Origin: an uncultured Metabacillus sp.
GTDB lineage: Bacteria; Bacillota; Bacilli; Bacillales; Bacillaceae
Length of the DNA stretch: 60,617 nt
Assembly: GCF_947503125.1 (NCBI RefSeq)
Contig: NZ_CANNCR010000025.1
Coordinates: 1-60,617 of the forward strand
Reading direction: 5' to 3'
Made by a program: the position numbers and the translations under genes. Of the stretch, positions 7,818-60,094 are shown one piece after another. Positions within the stretch are counted from its first letter, which is position 1. Each line of letters starts with the position of its first letter. A model generated the notes under the pieces. The model saw only the letters and a program-made list of their open reading frames with translations, was not told the origin of the DNA and did no database searches.

Positions 7818-8078
7818 GTGAAGCAATTACCTGATGAATATTACCACTTGCTTGAGGAAATTCAAGCGATCGACTTTGTCCTTGTCGAACTGACCCTTTA
7901 TCTTGATACCCATCCAAATGATATGCAGGCTCTTCAGCAATTTAACCAATATGCCTTAAAAAGCAAAGAGTTGAAGCAAGTGTTTGAGTCAAAATTCGGG
8001 ATGCTGCAAGGCTATGGAAACAGCTTTGCAGATGCAAATTGGAGCTGGGGAACTGCTCCATGGCCATGGCAGGTTTAA
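7818..8078 (+). CDS. cotJB: Spore coat protein CotJB
   Basis: The 86-residue protein is helical ([23 protein letters not shown], then [11 protein letters not shown]) with an aromatic Trp/Gly-rich tail ending [11 protein letters not shown], typical of CotJB. Two in-frame GTG codons lie at 7812 and 7818. AGGGAGGT at 7804-7810 is eight bases from the second but only two from the first, so 7818 is chosen. It is the middle gene of the cotJABC operon. Confidence 0.9.
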
Positions 8079-8134
8079 TATGATAAAGGATCGGTGCTAC
8101 CCGGTCCTTTCATTACGAAAGGAGACAACAGATC

Positions 8135-8704
8135 ATGTGGGTATATGAAAAGAAGCTTCAATATCCAGTAAAGGTAAGCACATGTAATCCGACTCTTGCG
8201 AAATATTTAATTGAACAATACGGCGGTGCAGATGGGGAATTAGCAGCGGCATTGCGTTATTTAAACCAGCGTTATACGATTCCGGGTAAAGTTATAGGCT
8301 TATTAAATGATATTGGAACAGAAGAATTTGCTCATCTGGAAATGATTGCAACAATGGTTTATAAATTAACCAAAGATGCTACACCTGAGCAGCTAAAAGC
8401 AGCAGGTTTAGGTGAACATTATGTCGATCATGATTCGGCCTTGTTTTATCACAATGCAGCGGGTGTACCATTTACAGCAACTTATATTCAAGCAAAGGGT
8501 GACCCAATTGCAGATTTGTATGAAGATATTGCTGCAGAAGAAAAAGCGAGGGCTACATATCAATGGCTTATTAATATTTCAGACGACCCCGATATAAATG
8601 ATAGTCTTGCCTTTTTAAGAGAACGGGAGATTGTCCATTCACAACGATTTAGAGAGGCAGTCGAAATTTTAAAAGAAGAACGTGATCGTAAGAAGTTCTT
8701 TTAA
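8135..8704 (+). CDS. cotJC: Spore coat protein CotJC, manganese-catalase family
   Basis: The 189-residue protein belongs to the di-manganese catalase (ferritin-like) family. Glu and His residues in TEEFAHLEMIATMV, AAEEKARATYQWL and EIVHSQRFREAV lie where the metal-binding four-helix bundle provides its ligands. It is located in the spore coat and may act against peroxide. It ends cotJABC. A small hairpin (GGATCGG/CCCGGTCC) lies in the 56-base gap after cotJB and may adjust relative expression. Confidence 0.93.
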   Translation: MWVYEKKLQYPVKVSTCNPTLAKYLIEQYGGADGELAAALRYLNQRYTIPGKVIGLLNDIGTEEFAHLEMIATMVYKLTKDATPEQLKAAGLGEHYVDHDSALFYHNAAGVPFTATYIQAKGDPIADLYEDIAAEEKARATYQWLINISDDPDINDSLAFLREREIVHSQRFREAVEILKEERDRKKFF

Positions 8705-8707
8705 AGG

Positions 8708-8741
8708 AAATCTCGGAGCGACGGTGCGTTCCGAGATTTTT
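8708..8741 (+). terminator. Terminator of cotJABC
   Basis: The AAATCTCGGA/TCCGAGATTT stem is ten bases long with a 13-base loop and ends in T residues. Confidence 0.9.
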
Positions 8742-8763
8742 CTATGGAAACAATAAAAGGATT

Positions 8764-8896
8764 AACTGTGGACAAGCGCTCACGTATCAGCTCCAAGGCA
8801 CAGGACGTGTAAATGCAGTAAAGATACGAGGACATCGCTTTTTTGACTGCATCTAGTTCCTATTCGCCTTATGCTTGTCGCCTTGCGCTTTTCTTA
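8764..8896. repeat. Dispersed intergenic repeat, copy 1
   Basis: The stretch opens with CTGTGGACAAGCGCTCACGT and ATCAGCTCC and ends with CTTATGCTTGTCG and TTGCGCTTTTC, so its ends pair as AAGCGC/GCGCTT. A related copy stands at 23793-23912, and a fragment with CACAGGACG occurs at 9400-9450. It resembles the non-coding GCTCCAG-type intergenic repeats common in Bacillaceae genomes. The right end just touches the 3-prime end of ywpF. Confidence 0.6.
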
Positions 8897-9334
8897 CAAC
8901 TTCGTTGATTCTTTCCGCTGATGAACGTTTTCTGAAAATGTTTTAATGAGGGCATCTCCTGATAAGCCCTGCCCCATTAAGGAACGAAGCAGCTGCTCTG
9001 GATCATGGATTGGTCTGGATGTTAATAGTCGGCCATCTAATAAAATTGATAAATGATTTTCTAAAGGAGTAATGGTTTTAACCTTTGCCATGATTTGGGC
9101 AGGCGCATTTGTCTTTTTCGAAATGGTCACTAGGACTTTCATTTTCTTTTTCGCTTCCGATAGCTTTTCGAAGTAGGTTTGAAACTCTTCTGGAATGAGT
9201 GCCTCAATTAACCAGGAGTTCTCTCCATCCTCGAGGTTAATGATTAACCCATCTTCAAGCGGGATCTCTTTGATTGTTTTCTCTTGAACCATATCTTGTT
9301 CAATTTTCAAGCCCACAAGCTTAAATGTTTTCAT
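8894..9334 (-). CDS. ywpF: YwpF-like protein
   Basis: The 146-residue protein begins MKTFKLVGLKIEQD and continues IPLEDGLIINLEDGENSWLIEALI, matching the YwpF family of unknown function in Bacillus. The three possible starts are at 9355, 9340 and 9334. AGGGGTG lies nine bases from 9334, and that start gives the family N-terminus. There is no signal peptide or membrane helix. Location between cotJ and ssbB agrees with the ywp region of B. subtilis. Confidence 0.8.
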   Translation of the reverse strand: MKTFKLVGLKIEQDMVQEKTIKEIPLEDGLIINLEDGENSWLIEALIPEEFQTYFEKLSEAKKKMKVLVTISKKTNAPAQIMAKVKTITPLENHLSILLDGRLLTSRPIHDPEQLLRSLMGQGLSGDALIKTFSENVHQRKESTKL

Positions 9335-9397
9335 CGCCATCACCCCTGTAAGCAAATTTTTTTATGAAAAAGAAAGTTATTGTACTTAGTTTTATTG

Positions 9398-9452
9398 TCA
9401 AGCTCCGAGACACAGGACGCCTATTTTTAACTGCTAGTGTCTAGTACAAAAA
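9398..9452. repeat. Fragment of the dispersed intergenic repeat
   Basis: TCAAGCTCCGAGACACAGGA matches the AGCTCCAAGGCACAGGACG segment of the repeat at 8764, and CTAGTGTCTAG follows. It is incomplete and lies in the gap between ywpF and the Xre-type regulator. Confidence 0.4.
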
Positions 9453-9538
9453 AATTTCTACTCATGCGCTTCCTCTTTTTGTTAAATGAAGTCCTTATTT
9501 ATTATACCATAGGAATAATTAATGCAAAAAAATGATCG

Positions 9539-9949
9539 TTACTCAGATAATTTCTTCGTTTTTTCGATGACGGTAATTAACATTTCTTCAATCAGCTTGC
9601 GGTTCTTTGGTTTAGCTAGTAAAAGCTGTTGCAGACATGCCAGCATTTTAGGATTCTTAATTAAATAATCAATAACTTGTGGCAGTGAAGGCTCCTCACA
9701 ATAGTCTCCATATACCTCAAAAAGGTAATCATTTGTTTGTTGCTTCCTTCCAATCAGTTCATCGATGCTAATATTAAATGCATTGCTTAAGGAAAGCAGA
9801 TAGGATAAGGCGGGCTCTTGGACACCTGTTTCAAGTCGCGTTATAACCGGTCGGGATACATTTATCCTTTCAGCGAGCTGTTCCTGCGACCATCCATTTT
9901 GCTCCCGATAATATTTCATATTCATGATAAATGTTTTTAGCTCTCTCAT
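9539..9949 (-). CDS. Xre-family transcriptional regulator
   Basis: The 136-residue protein has an N-terminal lambda-repressor-like helix-turn-helix at about residues 11-66: MKYYREQNGWSQEQLAERIN, VSRPVITRLETGVQEPALSYLLSL, FNISIDELIG. The C-terminal half (residues 70-136) is helical and of unknown function. The start at 9949 follows AGGAGGTCTAA. A 6-bp inverted repeat just upstream (9963-9981) could be its own operator. Its target genes cannot be inferred. Confidence 0.88.
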   Translation of the reverse strand: MRELKTFIMNMKYYREQNGWSQEQLAERINVSRPVITRLETGVQEPALSYLLSLSNAFNISIDELIGRKQQTNDYLFEVYGDYCEEPSLPQVIDYLIKNPKMLACLQQLLLAKPKNRKLIEEMLITVIEKTKKLSE

Positions 9950-9962
9950 TTAGACCTCCTGC

Positions 9963-9981
9963 ATGTTCTACTACTGAACAT
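9963..9981. promoter_or_regulatory. Inverted repeat ATGTTC-N7-GAACAT, possible Xre operator
   Basis: A perfect 6-bp inverted repeat lies 14 bp upstream of the regulator start. A further half-site, TGTTCG, follows at 9991. The position suits autorepression. The link is inference. Confidence 0.4.
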
Positions 9982-10189
9982 CCTGCCAACTGTTCGATAA
10001 TTAAACGAAAATAGATATTTGGACCTATATTGAGAATAGCGAAAAAATATGAAGAAAGAATGAGATGAGTGTTAAGTTTTTCTTAAAATTCGTCAAATAT
10101 CACCAAATATCATTATTCGCTTTATACAGTCATCATGAAAAATGACATATAATGACATTGTAAATTATTTGAAATGAGGTTATAAAAAA

Positions 10190-10606
10190 ATGGTTCTATT
10201 TAAATTAAAAAGTCTTTATGTCAAACAGAAAAAAAGAGAGTCATTACAGGTTAATGAGACACCAACTGAGGGCGACATCGTATTGAAAATAGCTGATTTT
10301 AAAAAAGGCAAACAGAAAGATTACTATTTTCTCGTTCCTACTCAAGCAATCGTTGAAATTCACTATGAAACAATCGATCAAAAAAATTTATTGCGTTTTG
10401 TTTTCTATTTAGAACAACGAAATCTATCTATTCAATACTTCACATGGAATGAGGTAGAACAACACTACATAGAAGCACCCCTTAAAAATGAAATAATTCA
10501 ATCCCATTCCTTCCAAGTCATTCTTCAGAGTATAAGCTATTCAGGCGATCAGCATATTTCATTCATTGTAAATTCAATTCAACGCTTAACAGACTTACCG
10601 AACTAA
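10190..10606 (+). CDS. Conserved hypothetical protein (possibly YwpG-like)
   Basis: The 138-residue protein starts MVLFKLKSLYVKQKKRES and has alternating hydrophobic beta-type segments (DYYFLVPTQAIVEIHY, NLLRFVFYLEQRNLSIQYF, SFQVILQSISYSGDQHISFIV). There is no signal peptide or membrane helix. It sits between ywpF and ssbB, the slot where B. subtilis has ywpG, but I do not recognise sequence motifs strongly enough to assign that name. The start has a weak GAGGTT site. Confidence 0.65.
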   Translation: MVLFKLKSLYVKQKKRESLQVNETPTEGDIVLKIADFKKGKQKDYYFLVPTQAIVEIHYETIDQKNLLRFVFYLEQRNLSIQYFTWNEVEQHYIEAPLKNEIIQSHSFQVILQSISYSGDQHISFIVNSIQRLTDLPN

Positions 10607-10795
10607 CTGAAAAAACAATGAAATTGGCGAAATTTGCGGAAAGAATAAGTGATCATTTTTCAAATTAAAAAAATGTATTAGGTGATAAAAGAGTTTCAGG
10701 AGCTGCTAAAAAATCAAAATAAATTTTTACTGATTTTCCCAACAGAGTGAAATCTATTACAATTCATTTGTACATAAAAGGAAAGGAGGGACAAG

Positions 10796-11143
10796 GTGAT
10801 CAATCAAATTATTTTAGTAGGTCGTCTAACAAAAGATCCAGAACTTCGCTACACAGCAGATGGATCGCCAGTCGCAAACATCACGTTGGCTGTAAGCCGG
10901 CAATTTCGTAATGCAGCAGGTGAAATTGATACAGATTTTGTTAACTGTACACTTTGGAGACGAACAGCAGAAAATACAGCAAACTATTGCCGAAAAGGCT
11001 CAATTGTTGGTGTGACAGGAAGAATACAGACACGCAGCTATGAAAATGCTGAACGAACCCGTGTCTACGTCACTGAAGTTGTAGCCGATTCCGTTCGCTT
11101 CATGAGCGGCAAACCACGTGAATTAGTAGAGCAAGAAAGCTAG
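10796..11143 (+). CDS. ssbB: Single-stranded DNA-binding protein SsbB (competence type)
   Basis: The 115-residue OB-fold protein reads MINQIILVGRLTKDPELRYT, ANITLAVSR, DFVNCTLWRRTAENTANYC, GSIVGVTGRIQTRSYE. It is short: the Gly/Gln-rich linker and acidic DDDIPF-type tip of SsbA are missing, as in SsbB/YwpH, which protects incoming DNA during natural transformation. The GTG at 10796 follows GGAAAGGAGGG. One AAAA-N5-TTTT box at 10716-10728 is compatible with ComK control, but I cannot see a convincing pair of boxes at standard spacing. Confidence 0.92.
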   Translation: MINQIILVGRLTKDPELRYTADGSPVANITLAVSRQFRNAAGEIDTDFVNCTLWRRTAENTANYCRKGSIVGVTGRIQTRSYENAERTRVYVTEVVADSVRFMSGKPRELVEQES

Positions 11144-11203
11144 TTCCGCTTTACTCTGTACTAGAAAAAATCAAAAGTACCCCCTTAACTCCTCGAAGAT
11201 TGA

Positions 11204-11248
11204 GAGGCTGGTTACTGCTAGATTCCCTCAGCAAGCCAGCCTATTTTT
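11204..11248 (+). terminator. Terminator after ssbB
   Basis: The AGGCTGG/CCAGCCT stem has a loop of about 24 bases and is followed by ATTTTT. Confidence 0.8.
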
Positions 11249-11291
11249 AGGAGAAATAATGGTATAATAGCTAAAAGGAGGTGAAAGAAGG

Positions 11292-11738
11292 ATGGAAGAA
11301 TTATTAAAAACCTTTATGAGTCAAATGAATCAGCAATTTTTACTTTTAACGAAGGAAATCCACGAAATAAAAGATGGTGTAGCACGTTTAGAAGGAAGAA
11401 TGGATAAGTTAGAAAGCAAGATGGGACTCCTTGAAGGAAGAATGGACAAGTTAGAAGGCAAGGTTGATTCTTTAGAAGAAAGAATAGAGAAGCTTGAAAA
11501 AAGGATAACTGTTTTAGAAGAAAATCAAAATGAATTAAAGCAAACGATCAATCAGCATGCCACAGAATTTAGAAGCCATTTTAAAAAGATTGAGGAAGAG
11601 CTTAAACAGCATCGCGAAGCTTTTAATATTTATGCTGCAGATCTAAGCTCAGTAAAAACAAATGTTGAGTATTTAAGTGGGAAAACAGGTGTGCACGATA
11701 TGAAAATAAACAACATCGAAAAAAGGCTCGAAGTATAA
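11292..11738 (+). CDS. Coiled-coil protein of unknown function
   Basis: The 148-residue protein is almost entirely heptad coiled coil: repeats of LEGRMDKLE, LESKMGLLE and LEERIEKLEKR from residue 30 to about 85, then an extended helix to the C-terminus. There is no membrane segment or enzymatic motif. A strong site AAAGGAGGTGAAAG precedes the ATG, and TATAAT at 11259-11266 suggests its own promoter. A second protein of the same style is encoded at 33125. Such small coiled-coil proteins recur in Bacillus genomes without assigned function. Confidence 0.75.
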   Translation: MEELLKTFMSQMNQQFLLLTKEIHEIKDGVARLEGRMDKLESKMGLLEGRMDKLEGKVDSLEERIEKLEKRITVLEENQNELKQTINQHATEFRSHFKKIEEELKQHREAFNIYAADLSSVKTNVEYLSGKTGVHDMKINNIEKRLEV

Positions 11739-35097: not shown

Positions 35098-35270
35098 CAA
35101 CATATTCCCCTTTTATCCTTGATGGTAGCTGTCTTGCTTTGCGTCATCACCTTTTAGTGATTTTGCCGTTGTTTATAGTATCGGGTTGAAATATGTCGAT
35201 TTTAGTAGGTCTTTTTTACTATTTTTTTATTTTCATGCCATTGTTGGTGAAAAGGAAAATCCCATAAAAA

Positions 35271-54841: not shown

Positions 54842-55378
54842 ATGAAAATTCACGAGGTGAGGACTATCCATTCGTTTAACGAAGCAGGGGAATTGCTCCC
54901 AGAAGAGATCGACACAATCAATCTCCTGACGAAAACGCCTATTAGCTCATTAAACCTCGATGCCATTGCCGTTGTGACAAATATTTACCGGATTGCACAA
55001 GGCTTAAGAAATAAGATGGAACGCGAAGTCCTTGTGGAATACGGGTTGTCCTGGACATCCTTTTCCATCCTATATGATTTGTGGATCGGGAATTCGGTTG
55101 AAACGAAAAAATTAGCTGAGTCAGCTGGTGTAACAAAAGCAACCGTAAGCAATATTACGAATACACTGGAGCGCAAGGAATTGTGTTATCGAAAAGTGGA
55201 TACAAGGGACCGAAGAATCACATTTGTCACGATCACAGACAAAGGCAAGCAGGTAATGGAGGAGCTATATCCGAGATTTCATCAAGGCGAAGTGGAGATT
55301 GTCTCACAATTGACGCTTGATGAGCAAAAAGGCATGGCAGCATTGCTTAGAAGAATCATTCGAGAAAATCAGTTTTAA
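54842..55378 (+). CDS. MarR-family transcriptional regulator (YwaE-like)
   Basis: The 178-residue protein has a MarR winged helix (YGLSWTSFSILYDLWIGNSV, LAESAGVTKATVSNITNTLE, CYRKVDTRDRRITFVTITDK). An N-terminal extension of about 35 residues precedes the dimer helix; a start further in is possible because the binding site is weak. In B. subtilis a MarR gene (ywaE) stands directly before tyrZ, and here too a tyrosine T-box and tyrZ follow. Confidence 0.88.
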   Translation: MKIHEVRTIHSFNEAGELLPEEIDTINLLTKTPISSLNLDAIAVVTNIYRIAQGLRNKMEREVLVEYGLSWTSFSILYDLWIGNSVETKKLAESAGVTKATVSNITNTLERKELCYRKVDTRDRRITFVTITDKGKQVMEELYPRFHQGEVEIVSQLTLDEQKGMAALLRRIIRENQF

Positions 55379-55386
55379 TTTAATAG

Positions 55387-55606
55387 GAAAAAAGCGCTGA
55401 GAGGAAAAGAAATAGTCGTTATCTCCCTGTAATCAGAGAGTCGATGGGTGGTGCGAATCGACACAAAGATAACACGAATTACACTCCTTGAGCTTTCTTT
55501 GCGAAATTGCCGCAAAGAACGGGTGACCGTTAATCATTGAGCGGAAGAATGATATTCTTCAATAAGGGTGGTACCGAGTGCAAATGTTAACCACGTCCCT
55601 TTTTCG
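55387..55606 (+). promoter_or_regulatory. Tyrosine T-box riboswitch, 3-prime part split off by a mobile element
   Basis: The leader contains stem I (with the loop sequence GGTGCGAATCGACAC), a specifier loop with GAATTACACTCC giving codon TAC (55480-55482) for tyrosine, and the T-box AAGGGTGGTACCGAG at 55564-55578. The terminator's left arm AACCACGTCCC (55589-55599) is present, but its right arm GGGATGTGGTT is now at 58821-58831 beyond a 3.2 kb insertion. The riboswitch can no longer terminate as designed. Confidence 0.88.
55598..55606 (+). repeat. Target-site duplication, left copy
   Basis: CCTTTTTCG, repeated exactly at 58813-58821. Removing one copy and the element restores the continuous T-box terminator AACCACGTCCCTTTTTCGGG. 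Confidence 0.9.
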
Positions 55607-55632
55607 TAACGGGTTCAGTTTAAAGGTGCAAA
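55607..55632 (+). repeat. Left terminal inverted repeat
   Basis: TAACGGGTTCAGTTTAAAGG followed by TGCAAA. It pairs with the right end at 58787-58812 with about three mismatches. Confidence 0.85.
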
Positions 55633-55648
55633 CAAGTAAAAATTAAGC

Positions 55649-55692
55649 AAAAAAGCATTGGAATTCACAAATGAATTTCAATGCTTTTTTTA
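55649..55692 (+). terminator. Terminator-like hairpin inside the left end of the element
   Basis: AAAAAGCATTG and CAATGCTTTTTT pair (with an inner AATTC/GAATT stem) and end in a T run. It would block transcription entering from the tyrZ T-box, and from the opposite direction too. Confidence 0.85.
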
Positions 55693-55795
55693 TTATAGTA
55701 TCAATGTTTATGGAGAATTTTTATTTTTTTCGCACCTGAATCCGCATACAAAATCATATATATGGAAATAATTATTGTAGGGTAAGTGAATTGAT

Positions 55796-55812
55796 TGTGA
55801 TTTATAATGTGA
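55796..55812 (+). repeat. Subterminal direct repeat, left copy
   Basis: TGTGATTTATAATGTGA. A copy with one difference is at 58727-58743 in the same orientation, and a shorter TGTGATTT occurs at 55820. Candidate transposase or accessory-protein binding sites. Confidence 0.6.
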
Positions 55813-55849
55813 AATTGTATGTGATTTGAAAATGGAGGTAAAAGTCCTG

Positions 55850-56101
55850 ATGGGAATGAAATTTATAGAGCCAAAAAACAGAAGAGCGGAGAAGGTTGGT
55901 TGGAAAATATCTGAACGGACCCGTTCGATTGTGAAATATTATGCGGAATATACAGAGTTTACGGAAGAGGAAATTGTCGATGAGTTTTTGCTCAATATCT
56001 TGAATGATAAGAAATTTCTAAAGTGGGTGGAGAGTAAACGCTATAACAAGCGGATTTTAGCACAAATCTTTGATATGGAGGATGATGAAAACATTGGCTA
56101 A
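55850..56101 (+). CDS. Small helical accessory protein of the transposon
   Basis: The 83-residue protein (MGMKFIEPKNRRAEKVGWKI, then SERTRSIVKYYAEYTEFTEE) is basic at the start and has two or three helices, with a ribbon-helix-helix-like pattern ERTRSIVKYYAEYTEFTEEE. GGAGG lies 11 bases before the ATG at 55850; an upstream TTG at 55826 is also open. Its 3-prime end overlaps the transposase start by about 20 bases, so translation is coupled. It may be a DNA-binding regulator of transposition; this is inference. Confidence 0.7.
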   Translation: MGMKFIEPKNRRAEKVGWKISERTRSIVKYYAEYTEFTEEEIVDEFLLNILNDKKFLKWVESKRYNKRILAQIFDMEDDENIG

Positions 56102-58043
56102 ACTAAAACGATTGGCTACCAAATTAGATGATACAGTTGAAATCTTTGAACCTGTTTCATCTGAAGAATTATTGGACAGGCATCTTGACTATCCAATGCT
56201 TAGCCCCAGACATTTTTCGCAAAAATACAATAAATTGTTTGAACCAATAGAATTTGTGTTCAATGGTCAAATCCACAAGATTCAATTCAATTATTGTGTT
56301 AATCCTTATTGTTTGTGGTTCGGTCAGCCCCAAAAGAGATTCGAAGAGATAAAGAATAAACCGAGTCGATATAAATTAAGCAGTAAAGGAAAAGGTAAAT
56401 CAGATGTGATTGTCTGTAATCCAAATCGCCAAACTCATCCCAACAAGAAAACTCATAACTGTACAGTCACTCCTGTTTCCAATTGGTCCGTAGCAGAAGA
56501 AATAAAGCGATTAGCTACGATGGACATTGTGAAGGATATTGAACCAGATTATGTTTTTCATAATATAGGGTGTGTGAATGAAGATTTTACGCCTTTCACA
56601 CATCAAAAGTTCTTTTATCGCAGAGGAACAAGTAGCGGTGGTTCACAGAAATGGCAGTGCAAAGAATGCAAGAAAATAACAAATGTTCTTCCGAACAGAG
56701 AACAGAAATTTACCTACCATCAAAAAAAGAATGACATAATGCCAATGTTCGCCAAAATGCTCTTGAATCGTTCCCCTGTAAGCAGAACGTGTGAGGCTTT
56801 GGATATTGCACCCCAAACTTACTATCATAAGTTGGAATGGCTGTATCGCAGATGTCTTGAATTCCTCGAACGGTATGAACACAAGCCTTTAAAGACGATG
56901 GAATTTGATTCTCTTTGGCTTAATACGGATAAGCTGGTATACAATCTGAATAATGTTCGAAAAAAGGGTCACGGAGGATTGCGGTACGATAATCTTGAAG
57001 ATAAATTAATGCAAACGCATATTGTCGTAACTGGAGATATTGATACGGGCTATATATTTCGGTCAGATGTTGCTTATGATTGGACCATCACGATAGATGA
57101 TGTTCACGAAGATACTCTTTATTACAGGGAAGACCATCTTTATGAGTTTTCAAGAAAAAATGCACGGCTACGGTTCTCCTATTCACCGCAACCGCCTACT
57201 GAGAAAGATGATGAAACTGACTTTGAATTTGAACTATTGCAGAGTAATTTTCATAGAAGGAAAAAATATATAGACGGACTTCATACAAACTCCAATTACA
57301 CGGCACTCGCCCATCTTTGGTTGATTAAACAGACTCTCCATTCTCGAAAATGGCGGTTTGTATCAGATGAAGATGATACCATTATGAAGGCTATCTATCG
57401 GGCATTTAACGACGAAATCCTTTCAGGTGAGGCTCATCATTTCCTTTGTAAGATTGACCGTGAAAAAGACCTTCCAGAAGCGTATAAGGAATACCTTACG
57501 GCTGCATCCAAACTAAAGGCTTGGGGAGAATTAAATGGTTTCGAGGAACTGTCTTTAAAGAAATTGGCATTATTAAAGATAATGTATGAGTTGAAAGGAC
57601 AACCTCTATACAGGGTCTTATCTGACGGAGCACAGACCTATAAGGTTTGGGCAAAGAATCCAGTAGAACATCCTCTGCCCCCATCGGATAAGGGATATTT
57701 TTCAGTGGATTGCACAACAGATATAAGTTCTCTTTCGGATGAATATGTTGCAAATATGTTCTTTAAGGTCAGCGATAGACCTACAAGCAATTTTATGCAG
57801 ATGATTCGGAGGAGGTTGTCCATCCTTGAAAGACCATTGGTAACGGCAAGAGGTGGTGGAAAAAGTTATATCTATGCAAACTTTAACCCTAAGTATGCTC
57901 AAATGTCACTCACCATCTTACGCACTTATTACAACTTCTGTTTAAAAATGAAAACAAAGGGAAAGGAAAAGTTAACACCTGCTCAACAATTAGGGTTAAC
58001 AGACAAGCAATTTACACTAAATGATATTTTATACTTCAAGTAA
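56082..58043 (+). CDS. Transposase with zinc fingers and DDE-like catalytic core
   Basis: The 653-residue protein has cysteine pairs typical of zinc ribbons (CVNPYC near residue 75 and QCKECKK near 195 with C in NIGCVNE), a helix-turn-helix LNRSPVSRTCEALDIAPQTY at about 230-250, and a likely catalytic triad: Asp in TMEFDSLWLN (about 276), Asp in FVSDEDDTI (about 429-432), Glu in LSILERPLVTARG (about 583), followed by YYNFC and LTPAQQLGL, which close DDE cores. Several starts are possible (ATG 56082 or 56085, TTG 56070 or 56094); GGAGG at 56077 favours 56085 or 56094. A terminator follows. The family could not be named. Confidence 0.8.
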   Translation: MMKTLAKLKRLATKLDDTVEIFEPVSSEELLDRHLDYPMLSPRHFSQKYNKLFEPIEFVFNGQIHKIQFNYCVNPYCLWFGQPQKRFEEIKNKPSRYKLSSKGKGKSDVIVCNPNRQTHPNKKTHNCTVTPVSNWSVAEEIKRLATMDIVKDIEPDYVFHNIGCVNEDFTPFTHQKFFYRRGTSSGGSQKWQCKECKKITNVLPNREQKFTYHQKKNDIMPMFAKMLLNRSPVSRTCEALDIAPQTYYHKLEWLYRRCLEFLERYEHKPLKTMEFDSLWLNTDKLVYNLNNVRKKGHGGLRYDNLEDKLMQTHIVVTGDIDTGYIFRSDVAYDWTITIDDVHEDTLYYREDHLYEFSRKNARLRFSYSPQPPTEKDDETDFEFELLQSNFHRRKKYIDGLHTNSNYTALAHLWLIKQTLHSRKWRFVSDEDDTIMKAIYRAFNDEILSGEAHHFLCKIDREKDLPEAYKEYLTAASKLKAWGELNGFEELSLKKLALLKIMYELKGQPLYRVLSDGAQTYKVWAKNPVEHPLPPSDKGYFSVDCTTDISSLSDEYVANMFFKVSDRPTSNFMQMIRRRLSILERPLVTARGGGKSYIYANFNPKYAQMSLTILRTYYNFCLKMKTKGKEKLTPAQQLGLTDKQFTLNDILYFK

Positions 58044-58071
58044 ATCGTCTATTTTTTATGGACGATTTTTT
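58042..58071 (+). terminator. Terminator of the transposase gene
   Basis: AAATCGTC/GACGATTT stem with a loop of about 11 bases, ending in T residues. Confidence 0.8.
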
Positions 58072-58153
58072 AGGTTAATTGGATTTTTATGTTAATATTT
58101 ATTAGGGATATATTTTTAGAAAATACAATTAATTCAATGAGAGGATGAAAGAA

Positions 58154-58657
58154 ATGGCTATGTCAGACTACTATGGAAAATTAAGAGATAAACTTGGTTC
58201 AGACTTGATTTTTATGCCGTGTGTAGCAGGAATAGTTCGGAATGAATTTGGAGAAATCTTATTTCAGAACAAAGGGAACGGAGAAAAGTGGAGTCTGCCT
58301 GCTGGGGCGATAGAACTTGGGGAAGCACCTGCTGAAGCTGTGGTTCGAGAAGTTTGGGAAGAAACGGGTCTATATGTTACTCCCAAAAAATTATTAGGAG
58401 TATTTGGCGGAAAGGACTTTCGTTATCAGTATCCAAATGGTCATAAAGTTGAGTATAATGTGTTCTTATTTGAATGTGAAGTTCAAAGTGGAGAACTAAA
58501 CCCGATAGACGATGAAACCTTTGAATTACGCTATTTCAACTTAAATGAAATGCCTGAACTTGCATTACCATATCCTAAATCAGTTTTCGAGTTGCCTTCT
58601 GAGGAAATATTCTTCCAGTGGAACGATGGATGGTTAGAGAAACTTAAACAGTCCTAA
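58154..58657 (+). CDS. Nudix hydrolase carried by the transposon
   Basis: The 167-residue protein has a complete Nudix box G-x5-E-x7-REVWEETGL (GAIELGEAPAEAVVREVWEE, about residues 54-76), preceded by WSLPAG. Nudix enzymes hydrolyse nucleoside-diphosphate derivatives, including toxic or oxidised nucleotides. GAGAGG lies nine bases before the ATG at 58154, favouring it over 58145. It is a passenger rather than a transposition gene; its benefit to the element is unknown. Confidence 0.88.
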   Translation: MAMSDYYGKLRDKLGSDLIFMPCVAGIVRNEFGEILFQNKGNGEKWSLPAGAIELGEAPAEAVVREVWEETGLYVTPKKLLGVFGGKDFRYQYPNGHKVEYNVFLFECEVQSGELNPIDDETFELRYFNLNEMPELALPYPKSVFELPSEEIFFQWNDGWLEKLKQS

Positions 58658-58683
58658 TTAGTTAAAAAACACCAATACAAGTC

Positions 58684-58712
58684 AAAAGGAGCTTAGAATT
58701 AAGCTCCTTTTT
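58684..58712 (+). terminator. Terminator of the Nudix gene
   Basis: AAAAGGAGCTT and AAGCTCCTTTT form a perfect stem with a six-base loop and T run. Confidence 0.9.
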
Positions 58713-58726
58713 AGTGTGTATTATTA

Positions 58727-58743
58727 TGTGATTTATGATGTGA
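58727..58743 (+). repeat. Subterminal direct repeat, right copy
   Basis: TGTGATTTATGATGTGA, one base different from the copy at 55796-55812. Confidence 0.6.
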
Positions 58744-58786
58744 CATAGGTGAGAAATAAAATGATATTTAAATTGCTAATCATCTT

Positions 58787-58812
58787 TTTGCACCTCAAAA
58801 GTGAACCCGTTA
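58787..58812 (+). repeat. Right terminal inverted repeat
   Basis: TTTGCACCTCAAAAGTGAAC and CCGTTA; on the minus strand TAACGGGTTCACTTTTGAGG and TGCAAA, matching the left end. Confidence 0.85.
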
Positions 58813-58821
58813 CCTTTTTCG
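58813..58821 (+). repeat. Target-site duplication, right copy
   Basis: CCTTTTTCG, identical to 55598-55606. The right arm of the old T-box terminator, GGGATGTGGTT plus a nine-T run, follows at once. Confidence 0.9.
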
Positions 58822-58862
58822 GGATGTGGTTTTTTTTTATTCATTTTTAGGAGGGAAAAATA

Positions 58863-60094
58863 ATGAGTCAATTAACTGTTGAACAGAGAAATGAAGTCAA
58901 AAGGCAGATGGCGATTTATAGCCAAGGTGTACAAGAAATCATACCAAGTGAAGAGTTAGAAAAGAAAGTAGCACGTCCATTCTTGAAAATCGGCCATTAA
59001 AAATAAAGCTGGGGCTGGATCCGTCTGCTCCAGATGTCCATCTAGGTCATACGGTCGTTTTAAACAAGCTTCGACAATTTCAAGAAAATGGCCATATGAT
59101 TCAACTGATTATCGGCGACTTTACCGGAAAAATCGGTGATCCGACAGGAAAGTCCGTTGCGAGAAAGCAATTAACCGATGAAGAGGTTCAACACAATGCG
59201 AAGACTTACTTCGAACAATTTGCCAAAATTATCGACATGTCAAAGGTAGAGCTGCATTACAACTCGAAGTGGCTGTCTAAATTGAATTTTGAGGATGTGA
59301 TTCAATTAGCGGGAAAAATAACCGTTGCCAGACTTTTAGAAAGAGATGACTTTGAAGAGAGGATTGCTTTTGGAAAACCGATTTCTCTGCACGAATTTTT
59401 CTACCCGTTAATGCAAGGCTATGATTCGGTTGAATTGGAATGTGATATTGAGCTCGGCGGGACAGATCAGCATTTCAACATCTTAATGGGCCGCCATTTT
59501 CAAGAGAAATTCGGAAAAGAAAAGCAAGTGGCGCTGCTCATGCCGTTATTAGAGGGACTTGACGGTGTAGAGAAGATGTCAAAATCAAAGAAAAATTACA
59601 TCGGCATCGACGAGAGCCCGCAAGAAATGTACGGAAAAGCGATGTCCATTCCAGATGAACTAATGATGAAATACTTCGAATTGGTAACAGATTGTACACC
59701 TGAGCAAATTCAAATGATCAAAGGCGAAGTAAACAGAGGGAAATTGCACCCTAGAGATGTGAAAATGCTATTAAGCAAAACGATCGTCCGTATGTACCAT
59801 GGCCAAGAAGCGGCTGAAAAAGCTGAACAGCATTTTGTTTCTGTCTTTCAACAACGTACACTTCCCGATGAGATACCGGTAGTTGAATGGCAAGGAACGA
59901 CTGAGATCTCGATCATCGATTTGCTTATGGCTCTAAACATGTTCACATCCAAAGGCGAAGCACGGAGAATGATTGAAAATCGAGGGGTTAAATTAAATGG
60001 TAACAAGGTCGAGGATACACAATTACAGGTTACTGTAACAAATGATTTAATCGTACAGGTTGGGAAGCGGAAATTTGTGAAAATAAAGATATAG
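58863..60094 (+). pseudogene. tyrZ: Tyrosyl-tRNA synthetase TyrZ, frameshifted near codon 38
   Basis: The start MSQLTVEQRNEVKRQMAIYS and the site AGGAGGG are normal. After KKVAR the frame is lost: one base is missing around 58971-58978, so the original frame stops at 58998-59000 after 45 codons. The -1 frame carries [19 protein letters not shown] and then the full enzyme: HLGHT (HIGH-class motif), [13 protein letters not shown] and a C-terminal S4-like domain (INRGVKLNG-type segment [16 protein letters not shown]). The expected length is about 410 residues. The upstream MarR gene and tyrosine T-box match ywaE-tyrZ of B. subtilis. A second synthetase (tyrS) must exist elsewhere if this copy is dead. 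Confidence 0.88.

Follow-up and report, generated by a model that had tools for sequence, protein, structure and literature searches.

How does a 3.2-kb transposon come to lie exactly in the loop of a riboswitch terminator? The question is raised by a contig of an uncultured Metabacillus sp. (NZ_CANNCR010000025.1; the whole stretch of 60,617 nucleotides (nt) is called the window below), in which an insert of 3,206 base pairs (bp) interrupts the T-box leader ahead of the tyrosyl-tRNA synthetase gene tyrZ. The insert is very probably a member of a cargo-carrying, DDE-type transposon family of the Bacillota that actively targets intrinsic transcription terminators.

The interrupted leader lies between a MarR gene and the synthetase gene (TIGR00234), and the T-box covariance model RF00230 matches it with 119 bits, above the gathering score of 93; its assignment to tyrosine rests on that downstream gene and on a visual reading of a TAC triplet within the leader. 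The sequence CCTTTTTCG stands as a direct repeat on both sides of the insert (55607-58812), and with one copy removed AACCACGTCCC-TTTTTC-GGGATGTGGTT rebuilds the old terminator, which folds at -18.5 kcal/mol (50-nt stretch folded) and has the insertion point in its loop. The initial annotation, made from the sequence alone, had called this terminator perfect, which is slightly too strong for an 11-bp stem that includes one G-U pair. The split that it described holds: relative to the empty site the 3' arm is displaced by 3.2 kb, and an intact terminator/antiterminator switch is thus missing in front of the gene. The parts of the locus are these:

55388..55603, plus strand: tyrZ T-box leader, full-length model match, broken at the terminator (RF00230, 119 bits)
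55589..55599, plus strand: split terminator, 5' arm (sequence; empty site in relatives)
55598..55606, plus strand: 9-bp target duplication, left copy (sequence, direct repeat)
58813..58821, plus strand: 9-bp target duplication, right copy (sequence, direct repeat)
58821..58831, plus strand: split terminator, 3' arm, then T-tract (sequence)

Of the 20 other genomes of the genus, 17 were found to have the same leader, with 18 loci long enough for comparison, and the terminator is uninterrupted in all 18; at the closest of them (L123, 90% identical) it is the same letter for letter. Empty sites in relatives had been suggested as a check, and their presence, together with the target duplication and terminal inverted repeats that agree at 14 of 16 positions, bears out the exact boundaries first proposed for the transposon.

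Target sites across the family

The insertion had been taken for a single event, which it is not: elements of the same family were found at unlinked loci in unrelated terminators. Such a recurrence had been named in advance as fatal to the claim; it does exist, leaving the boundaries unrefuted and pointing to a family-wide rule instead. The targeting idea came from three loci (L005, L006 and L012) and was then tested on further ones. Among the 53 sites for which both ends could be placed, the duplication is 9 bp long at 45 (with one mismatch in L106) and 10 bp at eight, and rebuilding them yields a hairpin of score 10 or more at 44. In all 44 the dyad of the hairpin lies no more than 1.5 bp from the middle of the duplication, and in 20 exactly on it, with offsets of up to 6 bp allowed; of 2,173 random control positions, 2 have a hairpin of this score as closely centred. 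Stem sequences are unrelated between target sites, which suggests that the terminator as such is what the family reads.

Tracts flank the hairpin in the usual order A-tract, hairpin, T-tract, peaking 14-15 bp from the target centre: an A-tract at -16 to -13 is present at 42 of the 53 sites, a T-tract at +13 to +16 at 47, both at 37 and either at 52, against frequencies of 0.200 for either and 0.0114 for both (6,521 positions) among 569,863 flank positions. Hairpin and tracts both matter for target choice, because positions with both tracts seldom have a centred hairpin (113 of 3,000 sampled), yet 35 of the 37 both-tract targets do. Among hairpin targets with a tract, in the 48-site set, both tracts are present at 32 of 39, compared with 74 of 170 other hairpins of the same loci (p 1.3e-5). 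In terms of strength, a hairpin score of at least 10.5 is reached at 39 of 48 sites, at 39 of 2,880 random positions and at 92 of 2,864 intergenic positions, the intergenic background containing other terminators. One-ended sites carry the expected tract in 11 of 14 cases, the better of two registers being counted. A second riboswitch target was absent from the 26 other loci scanned with Rfam; the T-box of L094 (1-173) is far from the L094 insertion site, and the window is the only case of a regulatory terminator as target among these loci and itself.

The sample was assembled as follows. A search for 9-bp duplications only had missed the 10-bp cases, and a wider search added five sites and 14 one-ended ones. 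Loci taken to represent the same place were counted once (L017/L083, L031/L097, L003/L028, L025/L108, L029/L111 and L004/L033/L107), and L150 was left uncounted, its site being common to L151. The right ends of L012 and L118 adjoin terminator arms (L006 overlaps L118), only L118 of the two entering the one-ended count. Loci with transposase matches but unresolved ends (L019, L086, L188, L190, L191 and L193-L197) stand outside all counts, and short fragments (e.g. L007-L016, L063-L066, L074-L078) are only partly covered.

The element, its end hairpins and tyrZ

Within its boundaries, the element in the window is organised as follows:

55607..58812, plus strand: transposon, 3,206 bp (terminal inverted repeats, target duplication, empty sites)
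55607..55622, plus strand: left terminal inverted repeat, 14/16 matching
55644..55695, plus strand: the element's own terminator-like hairpin, centre about 64 bp inside the left end (folding; not returned by the consensus terminator scan)
55850..56101, plus strand: ORF1, 83 amino acids, conserved small protein of the family (no Pfam match)
56091..58043, plus strand: transposase, 650 amino acids, with a zinc-finger/helix-turn-helix at about 174-249 and an RNase H-like core at about 270-640 (sequence and model)
58154..58657, plus strand: cargo gene, NUDIX hydrolase (PF00293, 1.6e-21)
58684..58711, no strand assigned: terminator-type hairpin near the right end (folding and terminator scan)
58797..58812, plus strand: right terminal inverted repeat (comparison of the two ends)

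The terminal repeat TAACGGGTTCAGTT fits the pattern TAA....TTC.GTT. The transposase is of the DDE type and falls into no Pfam family; residues D280, D426 and E580, which are invariant in 15 of 15 transposases with further invariant Asp residues close by, are its likely catalytic triad, and strands of an RNase H-like core can be seen in a predicted model of poor quality (mean predicted local distance difference test score, pLDDT, 60). ORF1 has no convincing family, and its model is also poor (pLDDT 55), so that a ribbon-helix-helix protein, considered at first, is no more than a guess.

The end hairpins of the element are a family trait. At the left end, the best hairpin sought at 56-70 bp is centred 63-65.5 bp inward in 37 of the 40 distinct elements and has 10 of 10 pairs in 29 of the 40. 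Its arms vary yet still pair, which is to say that they covary: an element's own arms form 9.47 of 10 pairs, a figure flattered by the choice of arms for best pairing, compared with 4.81 for arms mixed between elements. Scores of at least 12 are reached by 37 of 42 left ends and 28 of 42 right ends, compared with 1 of 42 in either case after shuffling (one base-shuffle each, optimised alike; the 42 include the duplicates L184 of L025 and L183 of L182). In the window, the new hairpin that had been placed directly behind the junction at 55649-55692 is indeed there, spanning 55644-55695. A simple consensus terminator scan of 55380-58900 did not return it, yielding three terminator-like matches, the right-end hairpin (minus strand) included, where 2.0 are expected. 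These internal hairpins are putative terminators that may stand in for the destroyed one.

For tyrZ, the target being a regulatory terminator, the predicted consequence is that the T-box can no longer switch the gene. The 3' arm that competed with the antiterminator now lies 3.2 kb off, and the hairpin behind the junction folds at -21.3 kcal/mol (60-nt stretch), compared with the value given above for the old terminator; leader transcripts would end at this constitutive hairpin whatever the state of tRNA-Tyr. Targeting that is harmless at ordinary terminators can in this way disconnect a riboswitch from its gene. No promoter for tyrZ stood out at the right end, promoter-like matches over 55380-58900 being at chance level (13 versus 12.0). 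The genes on either side of the interrupted leader are:

54842..55378, plus strand: MarR-family regulator, upstream of the leader (Pfam MarR, 6e-14)
58864..60094, plus strand: tyrZ-type tyrosyl-tRNA synthetase, frameshifted near its start (TIGR00234, frame comparison)

An open tyrZ frame of at least 414 codons exists at 15 of the 18 genus loci (it is short in L136, and none was found in L126 and L137), and the sole other synthetase match in the genome of the window is 29% identical. The decay of tyrZ may have come before or after the insertion, or the frameshift may be an assembly error. Elsewhere in the window, a c-di-GMP-I riboswitch aptamer was matched at 35121-35177 on the minus strand (39.2 bits), with 3 in place of 33 consensus positions in the alignment.

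Competing accounts of target choice

What the transposase recognises is probably an extruded DNA hairpin (a cruciform) flanked by A- and T-tracts, which a transposase dimer would sense and cut on both strands symmetrically at the loop, AT-rich bases helping the hairpin to extrude. The extruded hairpin is the likeliest signal because the unrelated stems share only self-complementarity, which is invisible in a closed duplex, and a dimer fits because the duplications are symmetric about the dyad. The element's own hairpins would terminate transcription in place of the destroyed terminator and make most insertions harmless. To this account as a whole, that the family recognises terminators by their capacity for DNA folding, cuts symmetrically at the loop and repays the host with built-in replacement terminators, we give an even chance.

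RNA too reveals self-complementarity, and what attracts the transposase might instead be RNA polymerase, or the hairpin in the nascent RNA, at an active terminator, as the T-tract, which active terminators need, at 47 of 53 targets would suggest. Orientation, however, is not clearly biased: among the 19 informative of 40 hairpin sites 12 elements are co-directional with their neighbouring genes and 7 opposite (p = 0.36), with T-tract strength favouring neither side (15 to 17); an orientation bias toward the upstream gene, considered earlier, was dropped when later gene calls gave this ratio. Two sites within open frames (L027 and L039), where both tracts are present and the hairpin is missing, likewise tell against transcription as the guide, and we regard it as unlikely. 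Plain recognition of duplex DNA, in which the signal is an A-tract and a T-tract spaced by about 28 bp and the hairpin is a by-product, is somewhat more doubtful still. It draws on the presence of at least one tract at 52 of 53 sites, including all nine non-hairpin sites, and on the position of each tract about one helical turn outside a cut site, but both-tract positions are common (6,521 of 569,863), and on this all-flank background the rarity of centred hairpins among them, set against 35 of 37 targets, is hard to reconcile with a by-product.

A third possibility, that insertion is random and only hits in terminators survive as nearly harmless, is very improbable. Sites do cluster past gene ends: at the 31 hairpin sites where the gene on the left runs toward the element, the median distance from its end is 37 bp. 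The youngest element, of which several sites hold identical copies, also misses hairpins more often (3 of 8 sites versus 6 of 45 for the others). Survival cannot, however, bring every one of the 44 dyads to within 1.5 bp of the duplication centre, since any terminator or intergenic position would be tolerated about equally, and centred hairpins are found at just 2 of the 2,173 random positions. A one-off insertion that chanced on a T-box terminator, to which the regulatory target, the only one among the window and the 26 scanned loci, could be thought to point, is scarcely credible, because the family-wide pattern of dyad-centred sites refutes a chance hit.

Several observations nonetheless weigh against deliberate insertion into terminators. 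Nine of the 53 sites have no good hairpin (L037, L182, L020, L039, L149, L187, L027, L183 and L199), two of which look terminator-like by eye, L020 with a short stem and a 13-nt loop and L183 with a site after an apparent 5S rRNA gene. Six of 48 sites lie inside mechanical open frames of at least 70 codons (L020, L027, L039, L095, L109 and L151), one of them, L039, lying within a plasmid gene annotated as a topoisomerase. In strength the hairpins resemble ordinary terminators, the intergenic 99th percentile (16.0) being surpassed at just 20 of 48 sites. The element carrying dfrG sits on hairpins at 5 of 8 sites, compared with 39 of 45 for the others, and for this reason later selection, or a member less strict than the rest, may account for part of the sharpness of targeting. 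To these are added the poor transposase model, the favourable choice of hairpin arms, and the two steps, cruciform sensing and replacement termination by the internal hairpins, that we infer from sequence.

The rule anticipates most insertion sites with an error of one or two base pairs and explains the destinations of a cargo-transposon family, including the dfrG carrier among enterococci, staphylococci and Listeria; the family also provides a natural setting in which to ask if DNA forms hairpins inside living cells. If targeting by folded DNA is right, terminators would be general safe-harbour docking sites through which Bacillota exchange genes, with cargo as different as spore germinant receptors and a resistance gene.

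Relatives, distribution and cargo

The closest named relative is the dfrG transposon Tn7491 (also spelled Tn4791 in print), which was originally found inside Listeria Tn6198 and whose transposase is 51.3% identical over 98% of the query. Both elements have a small open frame ahead of the transposase, cargo on its right, a 9-10 bp target duplication and the inverted-repeat pattern TAA....TTC.GTT, which places the window element in the same family; Tn7491 differs in its dfrG cargo, where the window has NUDIX, and in the letters of its repeats. The passages available of PMC10763498 report the inverted repeat and duplication of Tn7491 and place a second copy between convergent genes, and a text search there gave no hit for 'terminator', 'palindrom' or 'hairpin'. 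In the parts of PMC8343405 consulted, dfrG is tied to the names ISSsu9 and IS1595, its islands are flanked by direct repeats of about 63 bp (10 bp here, on plasmid pLI42, L154), and a dfrG island occupies one site in opposite orientations in two Listeria, as a palindromic target allows. The account in PMC4923244, as far as seen, has dfrG mobilised by IS257, at odds with the present reading of a Tn7491 family.

Targeting of terminator hairpins without a sequence consensus is itself already described, in the excerpts seen of PMC4923244 and PMC5678879, for IS1272 and TnSha1 of the IS1182 family, the latter also with a cargo gene. Those elements, however, make blunt cuts that delete part of the stem-loop and leave no target duplication, whereas comparison with the empty site shows that the window element keeps the whole hairpin and duplicates 9 bp at its loop (9-10 bp in the family). 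No IS1182 model is among the Pfam and NCBIfam matches of the window transposase, no direct IS1182 comparison having been made. IS1 is known to make a 9-bp duplication, as does the window element, and the zinc-finger/helix-turn-helix stretch matches its InsA (hhalign 82%, E 1.1e-5), but the NCBIfam IS1 score is 22 against a cut-off of 100, there is no meaningful InsB match (0.7%), and the transposase is about three times the length of the IS1 model. ISCth4, which we take to be of the IS256 family, shows no sequence match beyond a weak N-terminal domain match (E 0.009). Terminator-hairpin targeting is thus known, by stem deletion without duplication, and the dfrG member is already named; the family as such, the dyad-centred rule, the covarying end hairpin and the riboswitch consequence appear to be new, no report of them having been found in searches of the open-licence PubMed Central (PMC) literature. 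Nor are they mentioned in the passages seen of PMC4923244, PMC5678879, PMC10763498, PMC8343405, PMC4432960, PMC6048232, PMC12540322 and PMC8407400.

With a profile of four transposases (E 1e-30 or better), matches appear in 49 genomes out of 397 from the order and in 15 out of 398 from the class; with a profile of 15, they appear in 7 out of 398 from the phylum (1e-20) and in 16 out of 200 from a different order of the class (1e-50). Fragments are included in these tallies, which also overlap, and the window's own genome is counted wherever a set contains it. That genome has a second copy (L002 / L117, G000:C79), with a transposase 53% identical and a small lipoprotein-like frame seen by eye, whose right end is unresolved, the contig ending nearby. 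Among plasmids there are 114 matching records, 97 over at least 80% of the query and 90 of the 114 from Enterococcus. The seven plasmid loci compared (ends 3,276 bp apart in six, left end only in one) all list dfrG, the gene that gives one member of the family trimethoprim resistance. The dfrG element, identical at L027, L039, L148, L149, L151, L154 and also L184, with L150 differing by 122 bases, is Tn7491: the published end sequence and 9-bp duplication agree (PMC10763498, in the portion available). Two phage records of S. aureus (OP328421 and OP328422) likewise carry an annotated transposase of the dfrG type.

Nameable cargo varies widely among elements, and 22 of 40 cargo proteins scanned, a subset of the cargo frames, have no Pfam match at 1e-5. 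It includes a GNAT acetyltransferase (L087), MarR with an alcohol dehydrogenase (L089), an ABC transporter with FtsX (L093), a VanZ-like protein (L094), a signal peptidase (L099), an ABC-2 permease (L101), sigma-70 regions 2 and 4 (L105), a hydrolase (L109), a SUKH protein (L181), a leucine-rich repeat protein (L182), an ion channel (L192), an epimerase (L199) and DUF4871 (L022). The 7,864-bp element of L107 (G043:C73), which has a 10-bp duplication in a terminator, carries three gerA-type germinant receptor genes at 7995-11732, matching GerA, spore permease (GerB-type) and GerAC. Other loci differ in structure: L182 and L183 (G871) are identical 6,576-bp copies at different sites of one genome, with 10-bp duplications; an IS110-type transposase gene is nested within an element of the family (L198, 3998-5353); and a group II intron match lies next to or within another (L105, 8102-8186).

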